A stretch of 64,000 nt of DNA from Actinomycetota bacterium (lineage in GTDB: Bacteria > Actinomycetota > Actinomycetes > Propionibacteriales > Propionibacteriaceae): contig JAIUOS010000025.1 in the NCBI GenBank assembly GCA_020161755.1, positions 1 to 64,000 of the forward strand, given 5' to 3'. The notes under the pieces were generated by a model. That model saw only the letters and a list, made by a program, of their open reading frames with translations, did no database searches and had not been told where the DNA came from. A program made the translations under genes and the position numbers. This document shows, in pieces, positions 23,725 to 55,339 of this stretch. Position 1 is the first letter of the stretch, and every line of letters begins with the position of its first letter.

Positions 23725-23768
23725 TGTAAGGACATTTTGTTGACTTCTGGTTCTCGCAGGGCTTGAAT
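23725..23768 (+). promoter_or_regulatory. Promoter of the transaldolase-iolD operon with an IolR-like site
   Basis: A -35 box TTGACT (23740-23745) is followed by 17 bases and a -10 box TTGAAT (23763-23768). Just upstream, TGTAAGGACA (23725-23734), read on the minus strand as TGTCCTTACA, resembles the corynebacterial IolR consensus with one mismatch. The leader to the ATG at 23820 is about 45 bases. Confidence 0.6.
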
Positions 23769-23819
23769 GGAGGCACCGACTGGACAGTGGCACCACGTGC
23801 CTCGACGAAGAGGTCCCCA

Positions 23820-24890
23820 ATGACTGACACCAACACCCCGCTCGGCCTGATGACCCAGCGCGGTCCGACTGTGCTCTGGAACGACTCGGCCACCTACACC
23901 GAGCTGTCCACCGCGATCTCCTGGGGGGCCGTGGGCGCCACGTGCAACCCGGTGATCGCGCTGGCCGCGATCCGCGCCGACCTGCCGCGCTGGACCCAGC
24001 GCATCAAGGAACTGGCCGAGGAGATGCCGGAGGCCACCGAGTCCCAGATCGGCTGGAAGGTCGTCGAGGAGGTGTCGCTGGACGCCGCCAAGCTCCTGGA
24101 GCCCGCGTTCGAGAAGTACCACGGCTACAACGGCCGGCTCTCGATGCAGACCGATCCGCGCCTCGCCCGCAGCGCGAAGGCGCTCGCCGACCAGGCCGAG
24201 TACTTCTCGTCGCTGGCGAAGAACATCATCGTGAAGATCCCCGCCACCGGGGTCGGCATCGAGGCCATCGAGGACGCCAGCTACCGCGGCGTGAACATCA
24301 ACGTCACCGTGTCGTTCACCGTCGCCCAGGCCGTCGCCGCCGGCGAGGCCATCGAGCGCGGCCTGAAGCGCCGCGAGGCCGAGGGCAAGGACACGTCCAC
24401 CATGGGCCCGGTCGTGACGATCATGGTCGGCCGCCTCGACGACTGGCTGAAGTCGGTGTACGCCCACGACGGCCTGGTCTTCGACCCCGGCTACCTGGAA
24501 TGGGCCGGCGTCGCCGCGGTGAAGAAGGCCGTGCAGGAATTCCAGGCCCGCGGCCTGCGCTCCCGTGTGCTGGTCGCCGCCTACCGCAATGCGCTGCAGT
24601 GGACCGAGCTGGTCGGCGGCGACCTGGTGCTGTCGCCACCGTTCGCCTGGCAGCAGCGCTTCCAGGCCAGCGGCGTCGACCCCGAGCCGCGCATCGACGT
24701 CCCGGTCGACGCGAAGATCATCGACGCGCTCTCCACGATGCCGGAGTTCCGCAAGGCCTACGACGTCGACGGCATGACCCCCGACGAGTTCGCCGACTTC
24801 GGCGCCACCCGCAAGACCCTGCGCCAGTTCCTCGGGGCGGACGAGGAACTCGACCAGATCGTCCGTGACATCCTGATCCCAGCCCCCTGA
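23820..24890 (+). CDS. Transaldolase-family protein of the inositol operon
   Basis: A 356-aa class I aldolase-fold protein. The Schiff-base Lys is probably Lys139 in NIIVKIPATGVGIEAIED, matching the IKIPAT motif of transaldolases. The entry ATCNPVIALAAI matches the usual TSNPxI segment, and NINVTVSFTVAQA the NxTLxFS segment. The start is the ATG at 23820, where GAAGAGGT lies just upstream; an open extension to 23763 overlaps the promoter. It leads the operon that continues with iolD. Its true substrate is unclear: it may be a normal transaldolase or act on a keto-sugar from inositol breakdown. Confidence 0.82.
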   Translation: MTDTNTPLGLMTQRGPTVLWNDSATYTELSTAISWGAVGATCNPVIALAAIRADLPRWTQRIKELAEEMPEATESQIGWKVVEEVSLDAAKLLEPAFEKYHGYNGRLSMQTDPRLARSAKALADQAEYFSSLAKNIIVKIPATGVGIEAIEDASYRGVNINVTVSFTVAQAVAAGEAIERGLKRREAEGKDTSTMGPVVTIMVGRLDDWLKSVYAHDGLVFDPGYLEWAGVAAVKKAVQEFQARGLRSRVLVAAYRNALQWTELVGGDLVLSPPFAWQQRFQASGVDPEPRIDVPVDAKIIDALSTMPEFRKAYDVDGMTPDEFADFGATRKTLRQFLGADEELDQIVRDILIPAP

Positions 24891-24965
24891 CCGAAACGAA
24901 AGGGGACAGTCCCCTTTCGTTTCGGGATCACGTGGCGGGAGAGGGGGCAGTCCCCGTCCCGCCAC
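24891..24965. repeat. Two adjacent palindromes between transaldolase and iolD
   Basis: The first has 17-bp arms (24891-24907 and 24909-24925) around a single base and contains GGGGACAGTCCCC. The second has a 9-bp outer stem (24932-24940 with 24957-24965) around a similar GGGGGCAGTCCCC core. They start directly after the transaldolase stop and may lower iolD expression relative to it, or be REP-like elements. Confidence 0.7.
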
Positions 24966-24997
24966 ACCACCATCGATTCGACACCGGAGTTCATGAG

Positions 24998-26902
24998 ATG
25001 ACCCAGACCGTTCGGCTCACCGTCGCCCAGGCGGTGGTCAGGTTCCTCGCCAACCAGTACACCGAGCGGGACGGGGTGGAGCAGAAGCTCTTCGCGGGCT
25101 GCTTCGGCATCTTCGGGCACGGCAACGTCGCCGGCATCGGCCAGGCGCTGCTCCAGGCCGAACTCCAGACCCTGGACGGCGTCGAGGGCGCCCCGGACCT
25201 GCCGTACGTGCTGGTGCGCAACGAGCAGGGCGCCGTGCACGCGGCCGCCGCCTACGCCAAGACGAAGAACCGCCTCCAGACGTGGGCGGTCACGTCCTCG
25301 ATCGGCCCGGGGGCCACGAACATGGTCACCGGTGCCGCACTGGCCACCACGAACCGGCTGCCCGTGCTGCTGCTGCCCTCCGACATCTTCGCCACCCGCT
25401 ACCCCGACCCGGTGCTCCAGCAGCTGGAGGACCCGCGCTCGCTCGACATCTCGGTCAACGATGCCTTCAAGCCGGTCTCGCGCTACTGGGACCGGATCAA
25501 CCGCCCCGAGCAGCTGATCCCGTCCCTGCTGTGCGCGATGCGCGTCCTCACCGACCCGGCCGAGACCGGTGCGGTCACGCTCTGCCTGCCGCAGGACGTG
25601 CAGGCCGAGGCCTTCGACTTCCCGGTGCCGCTCTTCGACAAGCGCGTCTGGCACGTCGGACGCCCCGTCCCCGAGCCGGCCGCGCTGGCCCGCGCGGTCG
25701 CGGCGATCACGGCGTCGAAGCGCCCGCTGGTCGTCGCCGGCGGCGGCGCGATCTACGCCGGGGCGTCGGCGGAGCTCCGCGCGTTCGCCGAGGCCACCGG
25801 CATCCCGGTCGCCGACACCCAGGCCGGCAAGGGTGCCATCAACTTCGACCACCGCATGGCGGTCGGCGGTGTCGGTTCCACCGGCAACACGGCGGCCAAC
25901 ACGCTCGCCCGCGAGGCGGACCTGGTGATCGGCATCGGCACCCGCTACTCCGACTTCACCACCGCCAGCCACACCGTCTTCGCCGACCCGGACGTGCGGT
26001 TCGTCAACATCAACGTGCTGGCGTTCGACGCCGCGAAGAACGCTGCGACCATGGTGGTGGCGGACGCCCGGGAGGCCCTCGTCGCGCTCACCGACGCCCT
26101 CGCCGGCTGGACGACCGACGCCGCGTACCAGGCCCGCGCCGGCGAACTGGACGCCGAGTGGCAGCGCGTCGTCGACACCTGCTACGCCCCGCACGACCAG
26201 GAACTGCCCGCCCAGACCGAGGTGTTCGGCGCGCTGAACGAGCTCATGGGCGACCACGACGTGGTGATCAACGCCGCCGGCTCGATGCCCGGCGACCTCC
26301 AGGCCCTGTGGCGCGCCCGCACGCCCGAGCAGTACCACCTGGAGTACGCGTACTCGTGCATGGGGTACGAGATCCCGGCGGCGATGGGCGTGAAGCTGGC
26401 CGTCGGCGACGAGCACGAAGTGGTCGCGATCGTCGGCGACGGCACCTACCAGATGCTGCCGATGGAGATCGCGACCATGGCACAGGAGGGCATCAAGGTG
26501 ATCCTCGTGCTGCTCCAGAACCACGGCTTCGCCTCGATCGGCGCGCTGTCGGAGTCGCGGGGCTCGCAGCGCTTCGGCACGAAGTACCGGACGCGGTCCG
26601 CGTCCGGCCGCCTCGACGGCGCGGACGTGCCCTTCGACCTCGCCGCCAACGCCGCCAGCTGGGGCGCGGACGTCCTGCGCTGCAACGGCATGGCCGAGTT
26701 CCGCGAGAACTACGCGAAGGCCGTCGCGGCCGACCGCACCACCGTCCTCTACATCGAGACCAACCTGTACGGGCCCAACCCGCCCGGCAGCGCGTGGTGG
26801 GACGTGCCGGTGTCGCAGGTCTCCGAGCTGGACAGCACCCGGAAGGCCTACGACGAGTACGTTGCCGAAAAGGCCGCCCAGCGCCACTATCTTCAGGCGT
26901 GA
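24998..26902 (+). CDS. iolD: 3D-(3,5/4)-trihydroxycyclohexane-1,2-dione hydrolase
   Basis: Thiamine-diphosphate enzyme that opens the inositol-derived ring to give 5-deoxy-glucuronate. 634 aa, the usual IolD length. The catalytic Glu76 lies in LVRNEQGAVHAAAAYAK. AVTSSIGPGATNMVTGAA follows, and the cofactor motif runs from GDGTYQMLPMEIATMAQEG to the Asn of LLQNHGFASIGALSES. The ATG at 24998 has GGAG nine bases upstream. It overlaps the following TSUP gene by 4 bases. Confidence 0.96.
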   Translation: MTQTVRLTVAQAVVRFLANQYTERDGVEQKLFAGCFGIFGHGNVAGIGQALLQAELQTLDGVEGAPDLPYVLVRNEQGAVHAAAAYAKTKNRLQTWAVTSSIGPGATNMVTGAALATTNRLPVLLLPSDIFATRYPDPVLQQLEDPRSLDISVNDAFKPVSRYWDRINRPEQLIPSLLCAMRVLTDPAETGAVTLCLPQDVQAEAFDFPVPLFDKRVWHVGRPVPEPAALARAVAAITASKRPLVVAGGGAIYAGASAELRAFAEATGIPVADTQAGKGAINFDHRMAVGGVGSTGNTAANTLAREADLVIGIGTRYSDFTTASHTVFADPDVRFVNINVLAFDAAKNAATMVVADAREALVALTDALAGWTTDAAYQARAGELDAEWQRVVDTCYAPHDQELPAQTEVFGALNELMGDHDVVINAAGSMPGDLQALWRARTPEQYHLEYAYSCMGYEIPAAMGVKLAVGDEHEVVAIVGDGTYQMLPMEIATMAQEGIKVILVLLQNHGFASIGALSESRGSQRFGTKYRTRSASGRLDGADVPFDLAANAASWGADVLRCNGMAEFRENYAKAVAADRTTVLYIETNLYGPNPPGSAWWDVPVSQVSELDSTRKAYDEYVAEKAAQRHYLQA

Positions 26903-27645
26903 CCCAACTCGAGTCCGTCTGGGCAGCCATCCCGCTGTGGGGCTGGCTGGTCCTGGCGTTGTGTGCCCTGCTGATCGGCTTCTCCAAGACCGCCCTCGGC
27001 GGCCTCGCGCTGATCGCCGTGGTGATGGCCGCGCAGGTGGTGCCGACCAAGGACTCCACCGGCGTGGTGCTGGTGATGCTGCTCGTCGGCGACCTGGTGG
27101 CCACCTGGACCTACCGGCACGACGTCGACTGGCGGCTGATCCTGCGGCTGATCCCGCCGGTGGTGATCGGGATCGGGCTGGGCGCGCTGTTCCTGAACTG
27201 GGTGGACGGGCCCACGCTCAAGCGCACCATCGGCGTGATCCTGCTCGTGCTGCTGGTGATCGGCCTGTGGCCCGACCGGCTCGCCGCGCACCGTCCGGTC
27301 GTGGGCATGGCGTACGGCGGGCTGGCCGGCTTCACCACGATGGTCGCGAACGGTGGCGGGCCGCCGATGAGCCTGTACCTGCTCGCCCGCAAGTACGACA
27401 AGCTGCGGTTCCTCGGCACCACCGCCTGGTTCTTCTTCGCGGTCAACCTGATCAAGGTGCCGTTCTCCATCGCCAACGGCATCGTGCGTCCGGACACCGC
27501 GCTGATCGCGCTGACGCTGGCGCCCGTGGTGCTGGTCGGCACCTGGATCGGCCGCCGCACGATCAGCCACATCGACCAGACCCTGTTCAACCGTCTCGTC
27601 ACGATCCTCGTTGGCGTGGCCGCGGTCTACCTTCTCTTCGGCTAG
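26899..27645 (+). CDS. TSUP-family (TauE/SafE) membrane transporter
   Basis: A 248-aa permease with about eight helices and the family features GFSKTALGGLALIAV near the N-terminus and TTMVANGGGPPMSLYLL in the middle. The GTG start overlaps the iolD stop (GTGA), so it is tightly coupled to inositol breakdown. TSUP proteins usually move small anions such as sulfonates, sulfite or organic acids. In this place it could export an acid by-product, but no substrate can be deduced. Confidence 0.82.
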   Translation: MTQLESVWAAIPLWGWLVLALCALLIGFSKTALGGLALIAVVMAAQVVPTKDSTGVVLVMLLVGDLVATWTYRHDVDWRLILRLIPPVVIGIGLGALFLNWVDGPTLKRTIGVILLVLLVIGLWPDRLAAHRPVVGMAYGGLAGFTTMVANGGGPPMSLYLLARKYDKLRFLGTTAWFFFAVNLIKVPFSIANGIVRPDTALIALTLAPVVLVGTWIGRRTISHIDQTLFNRLVTILVGVAAVYLLFG

Positions 27646-27652
27646 GAGTGCC

Positions 27653-28825
27653 ATGACGCAACCAGGACAGCTGCGGCTCGCGGTCGGCATGGTCGGCGGC
27701 GGACCGGGCTCGAACATCGGCGTCGCCCACCGCGCGGGGCTGCTGCTCGACGACCGCTACCGGCTGGTCGCCGGCTGCTTCGCCCGGGACGCGGAGCGCT
27801 CGGCGTCCCTGGCCGCCCAGCTCGGCATCGACCCCGACCGTGCCTACCCCGACCACGCCACGATGGCGCGGGCGGAGGCCGCACGGGCCGACGGGATCGA
27901 CCTGGTGGTGGTGGCCACGCCGAACGACAGCCACGTCGAGATCGCCACCGCCTTCCTGGAGGCGGGCATCGCGGTCGCCTGCGAGAAGCCGCTGGCCACC
28001 GATTCGGCGGGCGCGGCCCGGCTGGTCGCGCTCGCGGCCGAGCGCGACCAGGTGCTGGCGGTCGCGCACTGCTACTCGGCCTACGCCATGGTGCGGCACG
28101 CCGCGCGGCTGGTGCGGGACGGGGAGCTGGGCGAGGTGCGGCACGTCGAGGTCGAGCACGCGTCCGGCTGGGCGTCGGAGCTGCACGAGGCCGGCGAGCA
28201 CAAGCAGGCGGCCTGGCGGATGGACCCCGACGTCGCCGGCTACGCCTCGGTGGTGGCCGACATCGGCATCCACGCGTTCCACCTCGTCCGCTACCTCACC
28301 GGGCTGGAGGCAGAGGAGGTGTCCGCCCAGCTGACCACACTGGTGCCCGGACGCCGGGTGGCCGACAACGCGACCGTGGCGCTGCGGCTCACCGGCGGGG
28401 TGAGCGGACGCCTGTGGGCGTCGATGGCGGCGACCGGCCAGGCCCACGGCCTGCGGATCCGGGTGTTCGGGTCGCAGGCCAGCCTGGACTGGAACCACGA
28501 GGACCCGCAGCACCTCGTCCTGCGCCGCGCGGGCGGCGAGGAGGTCCGCCTCGCCCAGGGCATGGCCGGGCTCAGCGCGGACGAGGCGCGCCTCAACCGC
28601 GTCGGCCTCGGCCACGCGGAGGGCTTCATCGAGGCGTTCGCCAACTACTACTCCGACATCGCCGAGGAGCTGCTCGCCCGCCGCGACGGCACCCCGCGCC
28701 CGCAGCGCGAACTCGGCTTCCCGACCGGCGCGGACGGCCTGGTCGGCCTCCAGTTCGTCGAGGCCGTGACGGCCTCGCACACCGCCAACTCAGCCTGGGT
28801 GCGCCCAGAGAAAGCAGGACAGTGA
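27653..28825 (+). CDS. Gfo/Idh/MocA-family oxidoreductase
   Basis: A 390-aa NAD(P)-dependent dehydrogenase. The Rossmann motif is GMVGGGPGSNIGVAH (about 12-26), of the longer subclass with an inserted loop. EKP with Lys112 and the pair Asp203 and His207 in VADIGIHAFH complete the catalytic set known from inositol dehydrogenase. A typical TAGGAG ribosome binding site precedes the ATG. Proteins of this length act on inositols, keto-sugars or glycosides; which one cannot be told. It overlaps the next gene by one base. Confidence 0.88.
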   Translation: MTQPGQLRLAVGMVGGGPGSNIGVAHRAGLLLDDRYRLVAGCFARDAERSASLAAQLGIDPDRAYPDHATMARAEAARADGIDLVVVATPNDSHVEIATAFLEAGIAVACEKPLATDSAGAARLVALAAERDQVLAVAHCYSAYAMVRHAARLVRDGELGEVRHVEVEHASGWASELHEAGEHKQAAWRMDPDVAGYASVVADIGIHAFHLVRYLTGLEAEEVSAQLTTLVPGRRVADNATVALRLTGGVSGRLWASMAATGQAHGLRIRVFGSQASLDWNHEDPQHLVLRRAGGEEVRLAQGMAGLSADEARLNRVGLGHAEGFIEAFANYYSDIAEELLARRDGTPRPQRELGFPTGADGLVGLQFVEAVTASHTANSAWVRPEKAGQ

Positions 28826-29820
28826 TGCAGCGTTTCGCCCTCCTCGGAGCAGGGTTCATCGGCTCGGTGCACGCCGCGAACCTCGCGGCGAACCCGAGGG
28901 TGGAGTTCGTGTCGGTCTACGACGTCTCGGCCGAGCGTGCGGCCGCGGTCGCGGCGACCCACGGCGCGACCGCCGTCGGTTCGGTCGCCGAGGCACTGAC
29001 CGGGGTGGACGCGGTGTACATCGCCTCCAGCACCGACACGCACGCCGACAACCTCCGGGCGGCCGTCGACGCCGGTGTGGCGGTGCTGTGCGAGAAGCCG
29101 ATCGACCTGTCCCTGGAGCGGGCGCGCGAGGTGGTCGCGTACGCCGACAGCAAGGGCGCGAAGGTGATGGTGAACTTCAACCGTCGCTTCGACCCCGACC
29201 ACGCCGAGCTCAAGCGGATCGTGGACGCCGACGGCGTTGGCACGGTCGAGCTGGTGCAGCTCACCTCGCGCGGTCCGGCGGTGCCGCCGCTGGAGTACGT
29301 GAAGGTGTCCGGCGGCCAGATGCGCGACCAGACCGTCCACTTCTTCGACCTGGCCCGCTGGATCGCCGGCGCGGACCCGGTCGAGGTGTTCGCCGCCGGT
29401 TCGGCGCTGGCCGAGCCGCGGCTGGCCGAGCCCGAGTACGACGACGTCGACACCAGCGTGTGCGTCCTGAAGCTGCCGGACGGCGCCCTGGTGCAGATCG
29501 ACAACAACCGCCGCACCGGCTACGGCTACGACGAGCGCATCGAGGTGCTCGGCTCCACCGGTCTGGTGGAGTCGATGCGGCACCGCGCCCGCCGGGTGAC
29601 CCACTACCAGGCCGGGGCCGTGGTCGAGTCGCAGCTGTACGCCGGCTGGTTCGAGCGGATGCAGCCCACCTACGCGCTGGCGCTGGAGCACTTCGTCGAG
29701 CTGCTCGAGACCGGCGCGCCCATCGAGCCGTCGCTCGTCGACGGCCTGAAGGCCCAGGCGATCGCCGAGGCCGCGACGAGGAGCCTGCACACCGGCGTCA
29801 GCGAGAAGATCGCCTACTGA
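28825..29820 (+). CDS. Inositol 2-dehydrogenase-like oxidoreductase
   Basis: A 331-aa Gfo/Idh/MocA enzyme close in length and motifs to IolG. The Rossmann motif is LLGAGFIGSVH (7-17), EKP has Lys91 and the catalytic pair is Asp168 and His172 in MRDQTVHFF. NFNRRFDPDH (about 117-126) matches the IolG substrate loop. It is the last gene of the operon begun by the transaldolase. Whether it oxidises myo-inositol or an isomer cannot be told; two further IolG-like genes (38625 and 47095) are closer to each other than to this one. Confidence 0.88.
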   Translation: MQRFALLGAGFIGSVHAANLAANPRVEFVSVYDVSAERAAAVAATHGATAVGSVAEALTGVDAVYIASSTDTHADNLRAAVDAGVAVLCEKPIDLSLERAREVVAYADSKGAKVMVNFNRRFDPDHAELKRIVDADGVGTVELVQLTSRGPAVPPLEYVKVSGGQMRDQTVHFFDLARWIAGADPVEVFAAGSALAEPRLAEPEYDDVDTSVCVLKLPDGALVQIDNNRRTGYGYDERIEVLGSTGLVESMRHRARRVTHYQAGAVVESQLYAGWFERMQPTYALALEHFVELLETGAPIEPSLVDGLKAQAIAEAATRSLHTGVSEKIAY

Positions 29821-29845
29821 CCGGGGGCCCCTGCCGGCCCCAGGC

Positions 29846-29915: not shown

Positions 29916-29927
29916 CGGGGCGTCGGG

Positions 29928-30800
29928 TCAGGAGCGTGGGGGAGCGGTGGACTCGCGCACCTCCAGCGAGCTCGGGACGAGGTGCAGCCGGCTCGGCAGG
30001 TCGGGCCGGGCCAGCCGCTCGACGAGGAAGCGGCCCGCCTGCTCCCCGACCGGAAAGGTGCCGTAGGTGACCGAGGTCAGCGAGAGGTGCCCGATCTTCG
30101 CCAGGGAGGTGTTGTCGTAGCCCACTACCGACACGTCCTGGGGAACCCACAGCCCCAGGTCGTCGGCGGCCGACAGGGTGCCGATGGCGGACATGTCGTT
30201 GTACGCGAGGATCGCCGTCGGACGATCGCGGCGGGAGAGGATGCGCCGGGCGGCGGCGTAGCCGCTCTCCTCGTCCGGTCCGCCGGCCTCCAGGTAGCGC
30301 TCGGGGTCGAGGCCGGCTTCGGAGAGGGTGGCCACGAAGCCCTCGTAGCGCAGCCGGCCGATCTCGCCGGGGCCGCGGAGGTGCGCGATGCGGGTGTGGC
30401 CGAGCTCGATCAGGTGGCGGGCGGCCAGGCTCGCCCCGGCCAGGTCGTCGTTGACCACGATGTCGCTGTGCTCCAGCACCGGTTCGCGGGTGCCGGCGAG
30501 CACGACGGGGACGCGGGTCGCGGCCGCCACGATCGCCGCGTCGTCCGCCCTCGAACCGACCACGACGATCCCGCTGACGTCGAGGGCGAGGAAGGTGTCG
30601 ACCGACTCGGCCCCGACCCGCTGATCGGTGTGGTTGTCGGCGAGGACCGGCGCGAGTCCGGCGCCGTGCAGGGTGCTGGCGAGACCGGCGAGCAGGTCGA
30701 CGAACCACGGGTTGGTGAGGTCGTTGATGAGGACGCCGACGCTGCCGGCGCGGGGTACGACGTCGCCGGACATCGGCCCGTCGAGGCGGTCAGCCGGCAT
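29928..30800 (-). CDS. LacI-like ligand-binding protein without a DNA-binding head
   Basis: A 290-aa protein that corresponds to the periplasmic-binding-like core of LacI/GalR regulators. SVGVLINDLTNPWFVDLL is near residue 20, HLIELGHTRIAHLRGPG near 127, AILAYNDMSAIGTLSA near 195 and VVGYDNTSLAKIGHLSLTSV near 222. The usual 60-residue N-terminal helix-turn-helix and hinge are missing. AAGGGAGG stands directly before the ATG at 30800, and only about 130 bases separate it from the divergent GntR gene, too little for a lost head. There is no signal peptide, so it should be cytoplasmic. Confidence 0.88.
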   Translation of the reverse strand: MPADRLDGPMSGDVVPRAGSVGVLINDLTNPWFVDLLAGLASTLHGAGLAPVLADNHTDQRVGAESVDTFLALDVSGIVVVGSRADDAAIVAAATRVPVVLAGTREPVLEHSDIVVNDDLAGASLAARHLIELGHTRIAHLRGPGEIGRLRYEGFVATLSEAGLDPERYLEAGGPDEESGYAAARRILSRRDRPTAILAYNDMSAIGTLSAADDLGLWVPQDVSVVGYDNTSLAKIGHLSLTSVTYGTFPVGEQAGRFLVERLARPDLPSRLHLVPSSLEVRESTAPPRS

Positions 30801-30861
30801 CGTCCTCCCTTGCTCGCGGCCAGCCTAGATCCAAACCACTCCGGGGTGGCCACTTGTCGGA

Positions 30862-30932: not shown

Positions 30933-31706
30933 ATGACGGCAACACTCGAGCGCATCGCGTACGCGGACGCCCGGCAGGTGCCGGTGACGATCGAGCGCGA
31001 CAGCCCCGTCCCGATGTACCACCAGCTCGCCCAGCAGCTCGCCCGGGCGATCGAGGACGGGGTGCTGCGGCCCGGTGACCCCTTCGAGAAGGAGCTGTCG
31101 CTGGCCGATCGGCTCGACCTGTCGCGTCCGACCGTGCGGCGGGCGATCGCCGAACTCGTCGCCAAGGGCCTGCTGGTGCGGCGCCGTGGGGTGGGCACCA
31201 CCGTGGCCCACGCGGCCGTCCATCGGCGCAACGAGCTGACCAGCCTCTACGACGACCTCGCGGCGGACGGACGCCGGCCGAGCACGCGCGTGCTGCGCCT
31301 GGGCTACGCCGAGTTCGACAAACGCGCGGCGGCCGCGCTCGAACTCGATCCGCGCACGCCGCTGGTGTACCTCGAACGGCTCCGGATGATCGATGGCGCC
31401 CCGATCGCGATCCTGAAGAACTGGCTGCCCCCGGCGATGTCGGACATCTCCGCCACCGAGCTGGAGGCCTGCGGCCTCTACGACCTGCTACGCCGCCGCG
31501 GCGTGGCGCCGTCCGTCGCCCACCAGACCGTCGGCGGCCGCCAGGCCGAGCCGGGGGAGCGCGCCCTGCTGGGACTCGGACGCCTCGACCCGGTGCTGAC
31601 GATGACCCGTTGGGCCTATGGTGCGAGCGGCACGCCCGTCGAGTTCGGCGACCACTGCTACCGCGCCGACCGGTACAGCTTTGACGTCACCGTCCACGCC
31701 CTGTAG
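30933..31706 (+). CDS. GntR-family (HutC-type) transcriptional regulator
   Basis: A 257-aa regulator. An N-terminal winged helix (about 20-90) has PMYHQLAQQLARAIEDGVL and SLADRLDLSRPTVRRAIAEL, and a C-terminal UTRA ligand domain (about 105-255) has PLVYLERLRMIDG and PVEFGDHCYRADRYSF. It is a clear paralogue of the regulator at 40595-41335, sharing long stretches such as RRNELTSLYDDL. Start ATG at 30933 after GAGG. TGTCTTTACT (30889-30898), weakly IolR-like, lies upstream along with the LacI operator. It converges with the LacI gene. Confidence 0.9.
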   Translation: MTATLERIAYADARQVPVTIERDSPVPMYHQLAQQLARAIEDGVLRPGDPFEKELSLADRLDLSRPTVRRAIAELVAKGLLVRRRGVGTTVAHAAVHRRNELTSLYDDLAADGRRPSTRVLRLGYAEFDKRAAAALELDPRTPLVYLERLRMIDGAPIAILKNWLPPAMSDISATELEACGLYDLLRRRGVAPSVAHQTVGGRQAEPGERALLGLGRLDPVLTMTRWAYGASGTPVEFGDHCYRADRYSFDVTVHAL

Positions 31707-32732: not shown

Positions 32733-32776
32733 CGGTCCCTCCGTTCCCGATTCTGTCACAAAGCTTCGGCTTGCTA

Positions 32777-36100: not shown

Positions 36101-36101
36101 C

Positions 36102-44219: not shown

Positions 44220-44307
44220 CCCACCCATGGCTGCGCCGCCGCGACCACGGGCGGTGCCGTCGATACAGGGGGTCCCGACCCGGGGGCCCAGGAGAGAGGA
44301 AGACCCG

Positions 44308-48099: not shown

Positions 48100-48112
48100 G
48101 CACCGCATCCGG

Positions 48113-48198: not shown

Positions 48199-48249
48199 GT
48201 CCGTGGGGCGGACGGGGCCGGCGTTGTGGAATTGTTATCTCGTTCATGT

Positions 48250-48298
48250 CACATACATGTGCATATGTCTTGACAACAACTCAGGCTAACCGTAGGTT
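48250..48298 (+). promoter_or_regulatory. Promoter of transporter 2 with an IolR-like site
   Basis: The -35 box TTGACA (48270-48275) and -10 box TAGGTT (48293-48298) are 17 bases apart. TGTCTTGACA (48266-48275) fits the recalled IolR consensus KGWCHTRACA at all ten positions and overlaps the -35 box. Just upstream, CACATACATGTG (48250-48261) is a further small palindrome. Confidence 0.72.
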
Positions 48299-48431
48299 CG
48301 ACGTACCGGCCACGGAGTCGTGGTCGGACGATACGAGAAGCCTTAGGTTGGCAATGGAGGAGCCAGGGCCTCCTCCCTGCCGTTCCCAGACCAAGGCGGA
48401 CCGTGTCCCCAGATCTCGAAGAGAGGGATTC

Positions 48432-49415
48432 ATGGCCAACAAGATTGGACTCAAGGTCGCGGCGCTCGTGTTCGCGTCCGCCACCGTCCTCACCGCCTGC
48501 TCCTCGGCGACCGCGCCGTCCGGCAGCAGCTCCGGTGCGGCATCCTCGGATGCCAACAAGACCTACAAGATCGGCGTCACGTTCCCGATCCTCGACCAGT
48601 TCCTCCAGAAGGTGGCCGACGGCATCACCGCCGAGGCGAAGGCCAAGGGCGCCGACGTCAGCATCGTGGCCGCCGACGAGAAGACCGACGTGCAGCTCAG
48701 CCAGGTCGAGAACTTCGTGTCGCAGAAGGTGGACGCGATCATCGTCATCGCCGTCGACACCGACGCCGCCGGCCCGATGACCGAGGCCGCGCAGAACGCG
48801 AAGATCCCGCTGGTCTACGTCAACCGCAACCCCTCCGACCTCCCCGAGGGCGTGCCCTACGTGGGTTCGGACTCCCTGGTCTCCGGCACGCTGGAGATGA
48901 CCGAGCTGGCCAAGCAGGCCGGCGGCAAGGGCAACGTCGTCATCATCCAGGGCGACCCGGCCAACGAGGCCGCCGTGCTCCGCACCAAGGGCTGCAACGA
49001 CGTCGTGGCCCAGAACCCGGGCATGAAGGTCATCAAGACCCAGGCCGGCAACTGGGCACGTGACAAGGGCCAGTCGATCATGGAGAACTGGCTGCAGTCC
49101 GGCGACCAGATCGACGTGGTCTGCGCGAACAACGACGAGATGGCGCTCGGTGCGATCAACGCCATCAAGGCGGCCAACAAGAAGCTCGGCGCCGGCGGCA
49201 TTCTCGTCGGCGGCGTGGACGCCACGTCCGACGCCCTGGCCGCGCTGAAGGCCGGCGACCTGGCCACCACCGTGTTCCAGGACGCCAAGGGCCAGGGTGG
49301 CGGCGGCGTGGACGCGGCGCTCAAGCTGATCGCCGGCGAGACCGTCCCGGCCTACGTCGACATCCCCTACCAGCTGGTGACCGTCGACAACATGGCGGAC
49401 TTCGAGGGCAAGTGA
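48432..49415 (+). CDS. Sugar/cyclitol ABC transporter binding lipoprotein (transporter 2)
   Basis: A 327-aa ribose/inositol-type binding protein. The signal ends VLTACSS (lipidated Cys at 21). IGVTFPILDQFLQKVADGI is near residue 46, FVSQKVDAIIVIAVDTDAAG near 95 and DVVCANNDEMALGAINAI near 230; the NDEMA piece is the hinge motif of RbsB/IbpA-type proteins. The start ATG at 48432 follows GAAGAGAGGG. A strong hairpin separates it from the ATPase gene, which should keep binding-protein mRNA in excess. Confidence 0.9.
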   Translation: MANKIGLKVAALVFASATVLTACSSATAPSGSSSGAASSDANKTYKIGVTFPILDQFLQKVADGITAEAKAKGADVSIVAADEKTDVQLSQVENFVSQKVDAIIVIAVDTDAAGPMTEAAQNAKIPLVYVNRNPSDLPEGVPYVGSDSLVSGTLEMTELAKQAGGKGNVVIIQGDPANEAAVLRTKGCNDVVAQNPGMKVIKTQAGNWARDKGQSIMENWLQSGDQIDVVCANNDEMALGAINAIKAANKKLGAGGILVGGVDATSDALAALKAGDLATTVFQDAKGQGGGGVDAALKLIAGETVPAYVDIPYQLVTVDNMADFEGK

Positions 49416-49430
49416 CACGCTAGAAAACCC

Positions 49431-49463
49431 GGTGGGTGGGTGACCAGCGGTCACCCACCCACC
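49431..49463 (+). terminator. Hairpin between binding protein and ATPase genes
   Basis: A 15-bp perfect stem (49431-49445 with 49449-49463) has a 3-base loop. It lies inside the operon, 15 bases after the binding-protein stop, and probably acts as an attenuator or mRNA stabiliser. Transporter 1 has no such hairpin. Confidence 0.8.
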
Positions 49464-49508
49464 AGCTCTGAGAACCGCTCCAGACAACGCCGTCCCGTGA
49501 GGTGTGTG

Positions 49509-51014
49509 ATGACTGACGAATACCTGCTGCGGATGCAGGGGATAGACAAGATCTTCCCCGGCGTCCACGCCCTCGACCATGTCGACCTGAACGTGCGGGC
49601 CGGGACGGTCCACTCGTTGATGGGCGAGAACGGGGCCGGCAAGTCGACGCTGATGAAGGTGCTGATCGGGATGTACACACCCGACGACGGCACGATCGTC
49701 TTCGACGGCCGTGAGGTGCAGATCAACGACACCGCCACCGGGCTGGGCCTGGGGATCTCGATGATCCACCAGGAGCTCTCGCCGGTTCCGGAGATGACGG
49801 TGGCGGAGAACATCTGGCTGGGTCGCGAGCCGAAGGGCGCGCTGGGCCTGATCAGCCGCCGGGCGATGAATACCGCCACGCAGGAGCTGTTCGACAAGTG
49901 GGAGATCCGGATCTCCCCGACGAAGCTGATGAAGGACCTGAGCATCGCGCAGACGCAGATGGTCGAGATCGCGAAGGCGATCAGCTTCGACTCCAAGCTC
50001 ATCATCATGGACGAGCCGACGTCGGCGATCACCGAGACCGAGGTTGCGCACCTGCACCGGATGATCGACCAGTTGCGTTCGACCGGCACGGCGATCATCT
50101 ACATCACGCACAAGATGGACGAGGTCTTCAAGATCTCCGACGACATCACTGTCTTCCGCGACGGCAAGCACGTCGCGACGCTGCCCGCGTCCGAACTGGA
50201 CCGGGACAAGCTGATCACCTTGATGGTGGGCCGCGAGCTCACCCAGATGTTCCCCAAGCTCGAGGCGGAGATCGGCGAGGTGATCTTGTCGGTGGAGCAC
50301 TTGAACCGCGGCCACCTGGTCCGCGATGTCAGTTTCGCGCTGCGGCGGGGCGAGATCCTCGGGTTCGCCGGCCTGATGGGTGCCGGTCGTACCGAGGTGC
50401 TGGAGACCCTGTTCGGGGTGCACAAGGCCGACAGTGGCACGATCACCATCAATGGCGCGCCGGTGACGATCAGCCAGCCGAAGGACGCGATCGCCGCGAA
50501 CATGGCGCTGTTGACCGAGGACCGCAAGCTCACCGGCATCATGGGTGTGTTGAGCGTCCGCGACAACATGATCATGGCCGCGCTGCCGAAGTATTCGCCG
50601 AACGGTTTCCTGAACCGGCGCCGGATCGAGGCGGACTGCCAGGCCCAGCGTGAGGCGCTGGCGCTGAAGACGCCGTCGCTGAACCAGCTGATCCAGAACC
50701 TGTCGGGCGGCAACCAGCAGAAGGTGCTGATCTCCCGCTGGCTGCTGACGCTGCCCGACATCCTGATGATCGACGAGCCCACCCGCGGCATCGACGTGGG
50801 TGCGAAGTCGGAGATCCACCGGTTGATGTCGATGCTCGCCCAGCAGGGCAAGGCGATCATCATGGTGTCCTCGGAGATGCCCGAGGTGCTCGGCATGAGC
50901 GACCGTGTGGTCGTCATGCACGAGGGCACCGTCAGCGGCATCGTGGAGCGCGCCGACGCCACCCAGGAACGAATCATGCAACTCGCCACCGGCCCCGACG
51001 CGACTGCGGCCTGA
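49509..51014 (+). CDS. Sugar ABC transporter ATPase, two-domain (transporter 2)
   Basis: A 501-aa RbsA/MglA-class ATPase. The first half has Walker [10 protein letters not shown] (39-47), signature [15 protein letters not shown] and Walker [14 protein letters not shown]. The second half has a degenerate P-loop GLMGAGRTE and signature [14 protein letters not shown] with [12 protein letters not shown]. The start is the ATG at 49509 after GAGGTG; an in-frame ATG at 49440 lies in the hairpin. It is paralogous to the ATPase at 36102 but clearly diverged. Confidence 0.94.
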
Positions 51015-51029
51015 GAGGAAGACCAGACA

Positions 51030-52028
51030 ATGTCCACCGCTACGACCGCTGACACCCGGACCAAGTTCGACACCAGCGGCTTCATCAAGAAGTACGCGAT
51101 CGTCGGCATCCTGCTGCTGTTCGTGATCCTGCTGTCGATCCTGACCGGCGGCTCGTTCCTGCAGCCGCAGAACCTGATCAACGTGATCCGGCAGGTCGCC
51201 GCCATCGGCATCATCGCCACCGGCATGACGTTCGTGATCATCATCAAGGGCATCGACCTGTCGGTGGGATCGATCGTCGCCGTCGCCGCCGTGGTGTCCT
51301 CCAGCCTCGCGCAGACGCCGCAGGCGTCCGTGATCATGTACCCCGGGCTCCACGTCCCGGTGATCGTGTCGGTGCTGGCCGGCCTCGCCGCCGGCGCGCT
51401 GCTCGGCCTGATCAACGGCGCGCTGATCGCCGGCTTCGGCATCGCCCCGTTCATCGCGACCCTGGGCATGATGACAGCGGCCCGCGGCATGGCACTGATC
51501 TACTCCGGTGGACGCCCGATCTCCCGGCTCAGCCCCGAGTTCAACTGGATCGGCCAGGGCGACCTGCTGTGGATCCCCGTCCCGATCTGGATCCTCGCGA
51601 TCGTCGCGGTGGTCGCCCACGTCATGCTGAACTTCACCCGGTTCGGACGCCACACCTACGCCCTCGGCGGCAACGAGCAGGCCGCGCGCGTGTCCGGCAT
51701 CGGGCTGAACAAGCTGAAGATCGGCATCTTCGCCCTGTCCGGCCTGCTGGCCGGTCTGGCCGGCATCCTGCTGGCGTCCCGGATCGGGTCCGGCAACCCC
51801 CAGCTCGGCACCGGCATCGAGCTGGACGCGATCACCGCGGCCGTCATCGGCGGCACCAGCTTCAACGGCGGCATCGGCACGATCTGGGGCGCGGTCGTCG
51901 GCGCCCTGATCATCGGCGTGATCAACAACGGCATGGACCTGTTGAACATCTCGCCGTTCATGCAGCAGGTCGTCAAGGGCGTGATCATCGTCCTCGCGAT
52001 CATCATCGACGAGCGCAAGAACCGCTGA
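51030..52028 (+). CDS. Sugar ABC transporter permease (transporter 2)
   Basis: A 332-aa BPD_transp_2 permease with about ten hydrophobic segments. [40 protein letters not shown] and [16 protein letters not shown] are the expected ribose-type motifs. AGAGGAAG precedes the ATG. A terminator-like hairpin follows. Confidence 0.93.
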
Positions 52029-52039
52029 GCAACCACGAC

Positions 52040-52071
52040 GACGGCGCCCTTCTCCGCTGAGGGGCGCCGTC
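52040..52071 (+). terminator. Terminator after the transporter 2 permease
   Basis: A 10-bp stem (52040-52049 with 52062-52071) has a 12-base loop and lies 11 bases after the stop codon. Confidence 0.75.
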
Positions 52072-52088
52072 TCGCACGAGCCGTCGAG

Positions 52089-52118
52089 TGGCGGAAGGGG
52101 GACTGTCCTCTTCCGCCA
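52089..52118. repeat. GGGGGACTGTCC-type palindrome
   Basis: TGGCGGAAG (52089-52097) pairs with CTTCCGCCA (52110-52118) around a core GGGGGACTGTCCT. The core resembles those at 24901 and 24943. It lies just before the ribosome binding site of the next gene. Confidence 0.65.
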
Positions 52119-52138
52119 GGACACGGGAAGGAACAGTC

Positions 52139-53323
52139 ATGAGAGAGATCGGCGTCGGCGTCATCGCGCTGGGCTGGATGGGACGGCTGCACAGCCGGGG
52201 CTTCGCCCAGGTGGGGGAGCGCTACCCGGAGCTGGGGGTGAAGGCGCGCTTGGTCGCCGCCGCGGACCCCGTCGAAGCCAACCAGGAGGCGGCGCTCGCG
52301 CTGGGCTTCTCCCGGGCGGTCGGCGACTACGCCGACCTGCTCGCCGACCCGGCGATCGAGGCTGTCTCGATCTGTGCACCGAACTTCCTGCACCACGAGA
52401 TCGCCCTGGCGGCGATCGCGGCGGGAAAGCACTTCTGGATCGAGAAGCCGATGGGCGTGAACGCGTCCCAGAGCCGCGAGATCGCGCAGGCCGCGGCCGC
52501 GGCCGGGCTGACCACCGCGACGGGCTTCAATTACCGCCACCAGCCGCCGGTCGCGCACGCCCGTGACCTGGTCCTGTCCGGCACGCTGGGACGCATCACC
52601 AACGCCCGGGTCTGGCTGATCGCCGACTACGCGTCCTCACCGGACGGCCCGTTCACCTGGCGCTACACCCGCGCGCAGGCCGGCGCCGGGGTCGTCGGCG
52701 ACCTGCTCAGCCACGGCATCGACCTCGCCCAGTTCGTGCTCGGCACCCGGGTCTCGTCGGTCACCGCCATGACCGACACCTTCATCACCGACCGCCCGCT
52801 GCCGCTCGGGGTGGGCGTCGGGCACTCGGCGGTCGCGGTCAGCGACGAGCGCCGGGCGGTCGAGAACGAGGACTACGTCGCCGCACTGGCGCGCACCGAG
52901 TCCGGCGCCCTGGTGACGCTGGAGTCGTCCCGGGTGGCGATGGGTCCGCGTGCGGAGTACGTGGTCGAGGTGTACGGGACGTCGGGCTCCGTCCGCTGGA
53001 GCTTCGAGCACCCCCAGCACCTGCAGGTCCTGATCGCCGACGCCGGTACCAGTCATCGCGGCTACACGGCGGTGATGAGCGAGGCCGGCCACGGTGACTA
53101 CGGACGCTTCCAGCCCGGCCCCGGCATGCACCTGAGCTTCGACGACTCGAAGGTCATCGAGGCCCGGCTGTTCCTGGAGTCGATCCTGACCGGGCGGCAG
53201 CTCGCCCCGTCCGCCGGGGACGCGTGGGCCGCGGCCGAGGCGGACGAGGCGATCGTGGCGTCCGCCGCCGACGGCGCCTGGCACCCCGTCCCGGTTGTCA
53301 CCGGCACCACGTTCGGCGCCTGA
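52139..53323 (+). CDS. Gfo/Idh/MocA-family oxidoreductase
   Basis: A 394-aa dehydrogenase of the longer subclass. The Rossmann motif reads VIALGWMGRLH, with Ala10 in place of the first Gly, a seen variant. EKP has Lys103, and the catalytic pair is Asp188 and His192 in GDLLSHGIDL. GFNYRHQPPVAHAR is the substrate loop. GGAAGGAA precedes the ATG. It is followed at 26 bases by the second iolH-like gene, repeating the oxidoreductase-IolH order of the first block. The substrate is unknown. Confidence 0.88.
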   Translation: MREIGVGVIALGWMGRLHSRGFAQVGERYPELGVKARLVAAADPVEANQEAALALGFSRAVGDYADLLADPAIEAVSICAPNFLHHEIALAAIAAGKHFWIEKPMGVNASQSREIAQAAAAAGLTTATGFNYRHQPPVAHARDLVLSGTLGRITNARVWLIADYASSPDGPFTWRYTRAQAGAGVVGDLLSHGIDLAQFVLGTRVSSVTAMTDTFITDRPLPLGVGVGHSAVAVSDERRAVENEDYVAALARTESGALVTLESSRVAMGPRAEYVVEVYGTSGSVRWSFEHPQHLQVLIADAGTSHRGYTAVMSEAGHGDYGRFQPGPGMHLSFDDSKVIEARLFLESILTGRQLAPSAGDAWAAAEADEAIVASAADGAWHPVPVVTGTTFGA

Positions 53324-53349
53324 TCCCACCGGTTCGAAGGAGAAACGCG

Positions 53350-54216
53350 ATGGTCAAGATCCTGCTCGACACGCACATGTACCACGCCACGATGTCGGTG
53401 GCCGAGGAGTGCTACAAGGCCGCCGACCTGGGGTATGAGTTCATCGAGCTGTCGCCGCGTGCCGACTTCCACGAGTGGCACCACTACCCGAAGGTCAACG
53501 ACGCCGACATCGCGAAGGTCAAGCAGGCGATGGCTGCGTCCGGGGTGAGGATCGAGACGTTCAACCCGGTCTTCAACTGGTCCTCGCCGGACGACTGGAC
53601 GCGCCGGATGCACGTGCGGAACTTCCGCCGCCTGCTGCAGATCGCCAACGACCTCGAGGTGCCGATGATCGCCACCGAGCTGTCCGGCGACCCGAACCGT
53701 CCGACCGAGTGCGAGTGGGCGTTCTACTCCTCGATCGAGGAACTGGCCCCCGACTTCGAGAAGTACGGGATCAGCTGCACGGTCGAGGCCCACCCGTACG
53801 ACTTCATCGAGACGAACGCGCGCTGCGTCGACATCGTCCGCGGGGTCAACAAGGACTGGTTCAACTACGAGTTCTGCTGCGCACACGCCTTCCACCTGTC
53901 CGAGGGTGCGGGGAATGTGGGCGAGATGCTGGCCTACGCCGGGGACACGCTCGCGCACGTGCACATCGCCGACGTGTACAACCACCGTGCGAACATCGGG
54001 AACCGCTACATCATGAACCCGCCCGGGGTGGACGCCCGGATCCACGCGCACAACGAGATCGGCAACGGCGAGGTGCCGTGGGACCAGCTCTTCGGCTACC
54101 TGCGCGAGACCAACTACGACGGCCGGGTGGCGGTCTCGGTGTTCGGCTGGGAAGAGGACGCCGACGCGATCCACGTCCGCATGCGCGAGCGGATCGAGTC
54201 GGAACTGAACTCCTGA
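53350..54216 (+). CDS. IolH-like TIM-barrel protein, copy 2
   Basis: A 288-aa barrel protein of the same length as the one at 39651 and sharing most of its motifs: HVRNFRRLLQIANDLEVPMI, TVEAHPYDFIE, YEFCCAHAFHLSEGAGNVG, HIADVYNHRANIGNRYIMNP and VDARIHAHNEIGNGEVPW. AAGGAG lies upstream. Its reaction is unknown, as for IolH in general. A palindrome follows its stop. Confidence 0.88.
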   Translation: MVKILLDTHMYHATMSVAEECYKAADLGYEFIELSPRADFHEWHHYPKVNDADIAKVKQAMAASGVRIETFNPVFNWSSPDDWTRRMHVRNFRRLLQIANDLEVPMIATELSGDPNRPTECEWAFYSSIEELAPDFEKYGISCTVEAHPYDFIETNARCVDIVRGVNKDWFNYEFCCAHAFHLSEGAGNVGEMLAYAGDTLAHVHIADVYNHRANIGNRYIMNPPGVDARIHAHNEIGNGEVPWDQLFGYLRETNYDGRVAVSVFGWEEDADAIHVRMRERIESELNS

Positions 54217-54225
54217 CCCCCCCTG

Positions 54226-54279
54226 CCGAGTTGTCAGAACCTCATTGCGCTATAGCGCAAGGAGGTTCTGACAACTCGG
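54226..54279. terminator. 54-base nested palindrome after the second iolH
   Basis: Outer arms of 18 bp (54226-54243 with 54262-54279) enclose, after one mismatch, the perfect 16-base palindrome TTGCGCTATAGCGCAA (54245-54260). It lies ten bases after the stop codon and before the next gene on the same strand. Confidence 0.75.
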
Positions 54280-54313
54280 AGGGGCAGCGGCAAACCGGAA
54301 GCGGAAGGCACCA

Positions 54314-55339
54314 ATGAGGATCGGGCTGGTCGGCTACGGGGCGGGCGGACGCTGGTTCCACGCGCCCTACATCGACGCGGCGGACGGGGTCGAGCTCGTC
54401 GGCGTCGTGACGCGCTCGCCCGAGCGGGCCGCCGAACTGCACGCGGAGCGTCCGGGGATGCCGACCTACGCGAGCCTGACCGACCTGCTCGCCGCCGGGG
54501 TGGACGCGGTCGCGATCAGCACCCCGCCGCCGACCCGCTACGAGCTGGTGCGAGAGGCGATCGCCGCGGGCGTCCATGTGGTCGCCGACAAGCCGTTCGC
54601 GCCCAGCGCGGAGGTCGCGGCCGAGCTGGGCGACCTGGCCGACGCCGCCGGCGTCCGGCTGAGCGTGTTCCACCAGCGGCGCCGGGACGCCGACGTCCAG
54701 ACCCTGAAGACCGTCCTGGACTCCGGTGAGCTCGGCACGATCTGGCGCTTCACCTCCTGCTTCGACCTCGACGAGCCGGGCAGCCTGGAGGCCGGACCCC
54801 ACGGCGGGCTGCTGCGCGACCTCGGCAGCCACCTCGTCGACCAGGCGTACTGGCTGTTCGGGCCGGTCGCACAGGTGAGTGCGCACCTGGAGTGGGTCGA
54901 CCTGCCCGAGGGACGGACGGACGCCGGCTTCGCGCTGCGTCTCGACCACGCCGGCGGCGTGGCCAGCTTCCTGTCGGCCTCGAAGCTGAACCGGCTCGTC
55001 CGGCGCACCCTGGAGCTGTACGGGGCCCACGGCAGCTACGTCGCCACCGGCAGCGACGTGCAGACCCGCGACGTCAAGGCCGGCCGGCGTCCCGCCGACG
55101 ACCCGTCCGGGTGGGGCTACGAGCCCGCGCAGCACTGGGGACGGCTACGGACCGCGGCGGGGGAGCGCGTGGTGCCCTCCGTCCAGGGCAACCACGCCAG
55201 CTACTACAGCGCGTTCGCCCGCGCGGTCGCGGACGGCACCGAGGTGCCGGTCGGGGTCGCGGACGCGATCGAGGTGCTCAGGGTGCTGGACGCGGCCCGC
55301 ACCAGCGCGGTCGAGCACCGCACCGTCGAGCTCGGGTGA
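54314..55339 (+). CDS. scyllo-Inositol dehydrogenase-like oxidoreductase (IolW/YdgJ type)
   Basis: A 341-aa Gfo/Idh/MocA enzyme that differs from the others here. GLVGYGAGGRWFHAPYI (4-20) and DKP with Lys93 in place of EKP are hallmarks of the IolW/YdgJ branch, as is LSVFHQRRRDADVQTLK (about 116-132). The catalytic pair is Asp169 and His173 in RDLGSHLVDQA. That branch includes NADP-dependent scyllo-inositol dehydrogenases, so it may feed scyllo-inositol into the pathway. It abuts the VOC gene with no base between stops. Confidence 0.85.
   Translation: MRIGLVGYGAGGRWFHAPYIDAADGVELVGVVTRSPERAAELHAERPGMPTYASLTDLLAAGVDAVAISTPPPTRYELVREAIAAGVHVVADKPFAPSAEVAAELGDLADAAGVRLSVFHQRRRDADVQTLKTVLDSGELGTIWRFTSCFDLDEPGSLEAGPHGGLLRDLGSHLVDQAYWLFGPVAQVSAHLEWVDLPEGRTDAGFALRLDHAGGVASFLSASKLNRLVRRTLELYGAHGSYVATGSDVQTRDVKAGRRPADDPSGWGYEPAQHWGRLRTAAGERVVPSVQGNHASYYSAFARAVADGTEVPVGVADAIEVLRVLDAARTSAVEHRTVELG

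Follow-up and report, generated by a model that had tools for sequence, protein, structure and literature searches.

How does a single inositol-catabolic core come to be surrounded by seven oxidoreductases and four TIM barrels, and do the oxidoreductases and barrels that stand side by side belong together? The question is raised by a 64,000-nucleotide stretch of actinobacterial DNA (the window; contig C25 of a 4.08-Mb genome rated 95.9% complete and 3.7% contaminated), in which reading frames, GC content by codon position, and family scans delimit an island of ~32 kb at 23.7–55.3 kb. As read from the sequence, the island comprises an inositol (iol) core, seven oxidoreductases and four barrels, a pair of ABC importers, four regulator-type genes, and a transaldolase-like protein, whose closest named relatives come from Propionicimonas and from metagenome-assembled genomes (MAGs) of Propionibacteriaceae. 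We conclude that it is quite probably an island for inositol catabolism, modular in build, in a Propionicimonas-like bacterium of the Propionibacteriaceae, with the enzyme roles proposed below. The island shows dehydrogenase/barrel modules accumulating round one core, and which apparent pairs are real units of inheritance; its most novel part, and the best candidate for bench work, is the transaldolase-like gene. Papers are cited by PubMed Central identifier.

The initial annotation had described positions 23725–55339 as a greatly expanded inositol island built from paired oxidoreductase and barrel modules. Its inventory was accurate. Seven Gfo/Idh/MocA oxidoreductases start at 27653, 28825, 32848, 38625, 47095, 52139, and 54314, and four xylose isomerase-like TIM barrels (AP_endonuc_2, PF01261, 80–144 bits) at 34017, 39651, 46147, and 53350; all four barrel–oxidoreductase adjacencies that it named are present, and the barrel at 53350 is flanked by oxidoreductases on both sides (52139 and 54314). 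Several oxidoreductases do accompany a single IolD-B-C-aldolase-IolA core in an inositol island, as proposed. The core genes, all on the + strand, are IolD (24932..26902; TIGR04377 881.6 bits, cut-off 715), IolC (41495..42445; TIGR04382 379.7 bits, cut-off 300), a Cgl0159-type aldolase (42445..43347; PF22649 399.3 bits, cut-off 27), IolB (43407..44219; TIGR04378 288.8 bits, cut-off 205), and IolA/MMSDH (44227..45867; TIGR01722 558.8 bits, cut-off 448.5). An inositol catabolism gene cluster (IolCatGC) has been defined by at least three of iolB, C, D, and E within one determinant (PMC9430895); here IolD, IolC, and IolB score above their cut-offs, and an IolE-like inosose dehydratase is also there (46147..47079, +; TIGR04379 142.7 bits against an equivalog cut-off of 290; IolE matches 9zmu and 3cny in the PDB). 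The oxidoreductases are clustered beyond chance: a levoglucosan-dehydrogenase profile finds 22 places in the genome at E ≤ 0.001, 7 of them inside these 31.6 kb (binomial P ~3e-10).

To what extent do the seven oxidoreductases differ? In the alignment, all seven have the catalytic Lys, Asp, and His without exception. Motif V divides inositol dehydrogenases into a myo/D-chiro class and a scyllo class, the former with YGY, whose last Tyr contacts the substrate (PMC9603128). IolG1 (28825..29820, +; TIGR04380 315.6 bits, cut-off 355; PDB matches 4hkt at 229.7 and 3euw at 201.8 bits) has YGY, IolG2 (38625..39632, +; NF052679 350.1 bits; 3mz0 at 278.2 bits) has WGY, and IolG3 (47095..48099, +; NF052679 404 bits, the cut-off for both being 540) has FGY, so that the last Tyr is found in all three and the first in IolG1 only; the basic residue of the scyllo class is in none of the three. 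All three thus appear nearest to the myo/D-chiro class and, sharing it, may be partly redundant. In our proposal they would oxidize myo- and D-chiro-inositol, and IolE would dehydrate inosose. The remaining four carry names that we coined, as did we for Bar1, Bar2, and Bar4 below, to mark resemblance only. GfoA (27653..28825, +; closest solved structures 3v5n, 7d5m, and 3dty, titled merely oxidoreductases) and GfoC (54314..55339, +; YvaA/YdgJ-type; PRK11579 180.4 bits, below its cut-off of 330; 3kux and 3gdo) are similar only to unnamed or general oxidoreductases. LgdA1 (32848..34020, +) and LgdA2 (52139..53323, +) have levoglucosan dehydrogenase 6a3f as their best PDB relative (227.5 and 223 bits), and their next relatives include the scyllo-inositol/L-glucose dehydrogenase 5ya8 (171.9 bits for LgdA1); on the levoglucosan dehydrogenase model NF052479 they score 249.2 and 265.9 bits against a cut-off of 650.

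It is possible, if doubtful, that the extra dehydrogenases and barrels are merely redundant myo-inositol enzymes, gathered by repeated module capture and without distinct substrates. IolG2 and IolG3 are 60% identical, Bar2 and Bar4 54%, and the three IolG proteins share one motif V class; functional redundancy among iolE/iolG loci has been reported for Propionibacterium freudenreichii (PMC4437456), and IolG and OxiD of Corynebacterium glutamicum cover an identical range of isomers (PMC9603128). Sorted by closest PDB relative and NCBIfam profile, however, the seven oxidoreductases form five groups (IolG3 by profile only), and the parts of importer 1 (35084..38617, +) and importer 2 (48246..52028, +), each a sugar ABC transporter with binding protein, ATPase, and permease, share just 25–37% identity. 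In C. glutamicum, moreover, four active enzymes had three different isomer ranges (PMC9603128).

Whether the adjacent genes are inherited as pairs was judged by counting adjacencies in 85 loci, after 11 duplicates or continuations were dropped, with matches of at least 38% identity and related genomes counted apart. The idea of paired modules held for two of the pairs. Bar1 (34017..35021, +; PF01261 94.2 bits) adjoins LgdA1 in 18 of the 19 Bar1 loci, and IolE adjoins an IolG2/IolG3-type gene in 9/10. It was not supported for the fourth pair, LgdA2 at 52139 with Bar4 at 53350: barrels of the type of Bar2 (39651..40517, +; PF01261 143.9 bits) and Bar4 (53350..54216, +; PF01261 140.9 bits) stand beside an IolG2/IolG3-type gene in 8/17 cases and beside LgdA2 in only 2/17, whereas LgdA2 homologues track IolD. 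Of the 35 LgdA2 homologues with at least 39% identity, 24 have IolD within 20 kb (11/18 at 54–66% identity and 13/17 at 39–45%), while only two of the weakest 10 matches do (nine at 34–37%, one partial at 50%). The corresponding values for LgdA1 homologues are 1/10 at 54–82% and 4/11 at 44–48%, with 14 weaker LgdA1 matches left unplaced. We therefore place LgdA2, on this comparative evidence, with the iol core and Bar4 with an iolE-G-H module, and regard LgdA1-Bar1 as distinct. That LgdA2 and Bar4 are neighbors here would then be for the most part a local arrangement. LgdA2 resembles a dehydrogenase of the iol core, and Bar4, by synteny, looks like mainly the iolH of an iolE-G-H module resembling those of P. 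freudenreichii (PMC4437456).

Given its tie to IolD, an inositol would be the best substrate for LgdA2, which could serve as an additional iol-core dehydrogenase, plausibly for scyllo- or myo-inositol, the choice of scyllo-inositol being a guess. The IolH-like barrels Bar2 and Bar4 may work with IolG and IolE, perhaps as inosose isomerases; Bar2 matches IolI at E 3.2e-5.

The pair LgdA1-Bar1 invites a different reading. In a Foldseek comparison the Bar1 model, which has a mean predicted local distance difference test (pLDDT) score of 82.6 and was built from only 7 sequences, with two low-confidence stretches, is closest to SCO6571 (2zds, E 1.1e-20, a title without function) and then to the 2-hydroxy-3-keto-glucal hydratase 8ro4 (E 8e-18, TM 0.68, 17% identity), ahead of Art22, sugar epimerases, IolI, and IolE; as an inosose dehydratase (TIGR04379) it scores 41.4 bits. 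The modeled fold fits an oxidize-then-eliminate/hydrate module for a glycoside or cyclitol. LgdA1 and Bar1 could thus be a separate, co-inherited module of this kind, with its own LacI regulator (31725..32759, −, divergent from LgdA1; PF00356 and PF13377); its substrate would be a further cyclitol or an inositol glycoside. The module is part of iol clusters in L066 and in the congeners L180 and L211. In L067 (9.4–17.7 kb), from another family of the same order, it stands beside a second, diverged IolC-aldolase-IolD set (55, 51, and 43% identity). L244, L247, and L254 also have LgdA1-Bar1 in iol clusters, but they were found via the transaldolase-like gene and are not independent evidence.

The same facts can be read, with rather low probability in our judgment, as showing that each pair of LgdA-like protein and barrel is a module for levoglucosan or 3-keto-glycosides (oxidizing C3, then β-eliminating, hydrating, and reducing) that neighbors inositol genes only by chance. 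The 6a3f and 8ro4 matches point that way, and in four relatives (L061–L064; LgdA1 80–82%, Bar1 85–88%, and LacI 67–77% identical) LacI-LgdA1-Bar1 occurs in a 20-kb stretch with no iol gene in it. In kinds of genes the island resembles levoglucosan lgd clusters, which combine a Gfo dehydrogenase with PF01261 barrels, an ABC importer, and LacI (PMC10066097, PMC7676230) and are marked by LgdB1 and LgdC partners. Here the LgdA-type cut-off is missed by both proteins and LgdA2 homologues are linked to IolD. The occurrence of LgdA1-Bar1 within the iol clusters of L180, L211, and L066 and beside the set in L067 also speaks against it. We dropped a levoglucosan reading of the whole 48.2–55.3 kb block, suggested by its ABC importer, LgdA-like protein, barrel, and Gfo gene, for LgdA2, given the IolD linkage, and kept it as a rival for LgdA1-Bar1. 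In L062 the LacI-LgdA1-Bar1 genes (8.4–11.7 kb) are flanked by genes of the PhoH, YbeY, Vut_1, and TGT families.

What, then, does the transaldolase-like gene do in an inositol island? It lies at 23763..24890 on the + strand and ends 41 bp before iolD. The protein belongs to the PF00923 superfamily (128.9 bits, cut-off 27) and keeps the Schiff-base Lys, but it falls below the cut-offs of all 10 NCBIfam transaldolase and fructose-6-phosphate aldolase (FSA) models listed (TIGR00876, transaldolase, 74.3 against 233.75 bits; TIGR00875, FSA, 39.9 against 245.95 bits). Its model (pLDDT 92.6) has the transaldolase fold, with a best Foldseek E of 1.2e-18 and TM of 0.76–0.82 in the first five matches. 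K158, D41, N62, Q129, T182, M221, and R224 are invariant in 43/43 aligned members, Lys158 being aligned with the Schiff-base Lys of three canonical transaldolases; Gln129 and Met221 stand where those three have Glu and Phe. In TalB numbering we take Gln129 and Met221 to be positions 96 and 178, and we likewise equate Gln129 with FSA Gln59 and the Met221 position with FSA Tyr131. Positions 96 and 178 are those altered in engineered TalB E96Q/F178Y (PDB titles 4rz5, 4rz6, and 9qpk). F178Y alone makes TalB a dihydroxyacetone-dependent aldolase (PMC3962226), and FSA and TalB activities have been interconverted by swapping the residues that organize the catalytic water, Gln59 lying in this site in FSA (PMC13259622). 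The analogy is partial, because Met is neither Phe nor Tyr.

In a sample of the order the transaldolase-like gene is carried by 30/196 genomes, and IolD is found in 30/30 carriers compared to 72/166 noncarriers (P ~3e-10, kinship not corrected for). The gene is within 20 kb of IolD in 23/29 non-self cases. A search with its sequence gave 47 named loci, of which 41 have IolD, IolC, or IolB, and 32 have IolD at 300 bp or less; the six without iol genes are L231, L255, and L260, on contigs of 3.3–6.6 kb, and the longer L237, L256, and L262. The actinobacterial loci are from Propionibacteriaceae, Mobilicoccus, Austwickia, Phycicoccus, Nostocoides, and other Actinomycetota, and the others are from two Trueperaceae MAGs, one Sphaerochaetaceae MAG, and single MAGs labeled Planctomycetota, Gammaproteobacteria, and Obscuribacterium. 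We infer that the transaldolase-like protein is an iol enzyme. In L240 and L241 (Phycicoccus/Nostocoides) a diverged iol set stands beside the gene, with two IolC matches genome-wide.

The protein would most likely cleave the IolB product (or its phosphate) in a retro-aldol reaction that yields malonate semialdehyde plus a C3 unit, either alongside IolC and the aldolase or in their place. The boldest form of this proposal, which we hold tentatively, as plausible though short of probable, is that an FSA-type aldolase (or transaldolase) cleaves non-phosphorylated 2-deoxy-5-keto-D-gluconate and so skips IolC and the phospho-aldolase. The products would be malonate semialdehyde and dihydroxyacetone, or the C3 unit would be passed to glyceraldehyde-3-phosphate. 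Viewed as a ketose, the substrate would be 5-deoxy-fructuronate, with the 3,4 stereochemistry of fructose (our own derivation), so that its carboxylate could occupy the site where the invariant Arg binds phosphate.

Such a bypass is best supported in two places. L258, from a gammaproteobacterial MAG, has a set of seven genes, MFS transporter-IolG-transaldolase-like-IolB-IolD-IolE-IolA, followed by respiratory-chain-type genes, and 10 of its 11 reading frames, which were scanned, include no kinase or other aldolase. In the island of G197, a congener MAG that is 88% complete, short remnants, 12 residues from the beginning of IolC and 16 from the end of the aldolase, adjoin at ~8800–8900 of L210, between GntR and IolB (83% identity). 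The transaldolase-like gene there is open and the other steps are kept; this loss could also be decay or an assembly fault. An IolC match at E 1e-50 is missing in 5/80 genomes: G190, G197, and those of L257, L258, and L259. The last three are the only non-actinobacterial loci in which iol genes accompany the transaldolase-like gene. For G197 and L257–L259 the absence covers IolC at that threshold, Cgl0159 and class II aldolase not having been searched and the completeness of the L257–L259 genomes not being shown. G190 has IolD at 53% identity and neither the transaldolase-like gene nor Cgl0159. The other non-actinobacterial carriers, L255, L256, and L262, lack IolD, IolC, and IolB in their loci, and the IolC-family matches of their genomes are all below the cut-off.

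Several observations weigh against parts of the account given so far. An IolC match is kept in 66/70 carriers (four of these below the cut-off) and the Cgl0159 aldolase in 17/30 carriers of the order sample, so the transaldolase-like gene is no simple replacement, and strict replacement of IolC and aldolase is unsupported in Actinobacteria. The lack of Cgl0159 is only weakly linked to the gene (13/14 vs 17/26, Fisher P 0.07). Members without nearby iol genes (L255, L256, and L262; also L231 and L237) share the Gln and Met, and these residues alone are therefore no marker of an inositol role. Elsewhere in the island, LgdA1-Bar1 occurs both within and far from iol clusters, and the IolE- and IolG-type proteins all score below NCBIfam equivalog cut-offs, so that the specificities given for them are tentative. 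Isomerase activity of Bar2 and Bar4 is a guess because, of the four positions that we take to be IolI metal ligands, two differ in both barrels by our reading of the alignment.

The transaldolase-like protein might instead act after IolC as an alternative 2-deoxy-5-keto-gluconate-6-phosphate aldolase, without any bypass of the kinase, which we consider unlikely. Fourteen of 40 IolD-positive genomes of the family have no Cgl0159; 13 of these 14 carry the transaldolase-like gene, each together with IolC, and DUF2090, described as an alternative phospho-aldolase in a paper whose available text does not mention transaldolase (PMC9007349), is in 0/14. More broadly, DUF2090 was absent in 19/19 genomes tested. 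The Fisher value above limits what this table can carry, however, and a class II aldolase, none of which was searched for, could do the step. The dihydroxyacetone donor of transaldolase and FSA, moreover, is not phosphorylated, and in the L257–L259 genomes there is no IolC match at E 1e-50. It is very improbable that the protein is a regular transaldolase of the pentose-phosphate pathway, placed in the cluster by chance: its fold, the retained active-site Lys, Asp, Asn, Thr, and Arg, and the 6/47 loci without iol genes would allow this, but a separate canonical transaldolase is encoded in the same genome (contig C11, 396.1 bits), Gln and Met are found in 43/43 members vs Glu and Phe in three canonical proteins, and the iol context is conserved, also in single MAGs of three other phyla.

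If the protein does cut the IolB product, it would represent an ATP-sparing branch of the textbook pathway, in several phyla, of which we found no description in the literature searched; genes now called simply “transaldolase” would need new names, and the enzyme could provide the aldolase step in genomes with IolD but neither Cgl0159 nor DUF2090. A role for transaldolase in inositol catabolism was not proposed in the titles and abstract openings that we searched, in which coverage of subscription journals is thin, and this is no proof of novelty. In P. freudenreichii, “Transaldolase 1” was raised in soy ultrafiltrate together with a dihydroxyacetone kinase subunit, IolC, IolD, and IolG1 (PMC7736159); because its accession lies outside the iol series, we draw nothing from it. 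The main text of the P. freudenreichii iol-island paper has 0 occurrences of “transaldolase” (PMC4437456). As in our proposal, SftT of the sulfo-TAL pathway (PMC11659671) and FSA (PMC13259622) are transaldolase-fold enzymes acting on a C6-modified ketose. The substrate proposed here differs in being a 5-deoxy keto-acid of inositol breakdown, and the protein differs in having Met at what we take to be the position of FSA Tyr131.

The island's place in the genome bears on its origin. On the + strand, unless marked −, its genes run in the order transaldolase-like, IolD, TauE/SafE, GfoA, IolG1, LacI-type (−), GntR-type, LacI (−), LgdA1, Bar1; then ABC importer 1, IolG2, Bar2, GntR (−), IolC, Cgl0159 aldolase, IolB, IolA; and finally IolE, IolG3, ABC importer 2, LgdA2, Bar4, GfoC, and a glyoxalase-like gene (−). 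They lie between menD and a right-flank gene, R1, which are ~32 kb apart here. In 5/8 fetched congener menD loci (L179 and L181–L184; matched parts) the island is absent and the spacing is 806–1040 bp. L179, L181, L183, and L184 keep a GntR-like gene between menD and R1, 68–69% identical to the window GntR at 40.6 kb, though without iol genes there. The other 3/8 have iol genes at this site, and compact islands that reach R1 are L178+L209 and L210. L178+L209 has the order transaldolase-like, IolD, GntR, IolC, aldolase, IolB, IolA, IolG1-like (40%), IolE, importer 2, LgdA2, IolG2-like (76–82%), Bar2-like (86%), LacI, R1. Between IolD and GntR, the window has TauE/SafE and 12 more genes that were not found there in L178, and so the island appears to have grown, or shrunk, by modules. 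GfoA, IolG1, both LacI-type genes, LgdA1, and Bar1 from this interval recur in congeners L180 and L211.

IolD was found in 11/30 genomes of the genus (its own counted), at 77–91% identity in nine congeners and at only 45% in one more, and at no more than 73% in other genera. We rejected a contaminating contig on the shared menD site and on IolD being closest to congeners. The first 18 non-self menD matches are all from the same genus, in a sample that contained no other genus of the family, and the shared site and the IolD identities are therefore the stronger points.

Overall, the island is a system of a known kind, in which the pairing idea was half right. “Greatly expanded” is a relative term, as C. 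glutamicum and P. freudenreichii show comparable redundancy (PMC9603128, PMC4437456). C. glutamicum has seven Gfo-family putative inositol dehydrogenases, three in iol1, three in iol2, and one elsewhere, under GntR-type control as here (PMC9603128), and its genome likewise has a Cgl0159-type aldolase (PF22649 match). In contrast to that system, with its IolT permeases (PMC9603128), a single 32-kb block here contains all seven, together with two ABC importers and the transaldolase-like gene. P. freudenreichii, also of the Propionibacteriaceae, shares an iolADBCG1E core, iolE-G2-H modules, and redundancy, with several iolE and iolG genes; it has three separate iol islands, whereas here one merged island also includes the LgdA1-Bar1 module (PMC4437456).

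Four genes of the island, starting at 23763 (transaldolase-like), 26899 (TauE/SafE), 30933 (GntR-type), and 29928 (LacI-type), had no part in the initial annotation's finding. One region, that of the last two, was interpreted by eye from the sequence: the GntR/UTRA-type regulator (30933..31706, +) was assigned by reading, without a family search, and the LacI-type gene (29928..30800, −) has a ligand domain only, with no helix-turn-helix DNA-binding domain found; its congener copy in L180 has that part. A further GntR/UTRA regulator (40595..41290, −; PF00392 and PF07702), divergent from iolC, is IolR-like by position. An Rfam scan of 19–58 kb gave zero matches. The TauE/SafE-type membrane protein gene (26899..27645, +; PF01925 122.1 bits) directly follows IolD both in the window and in congener L210.

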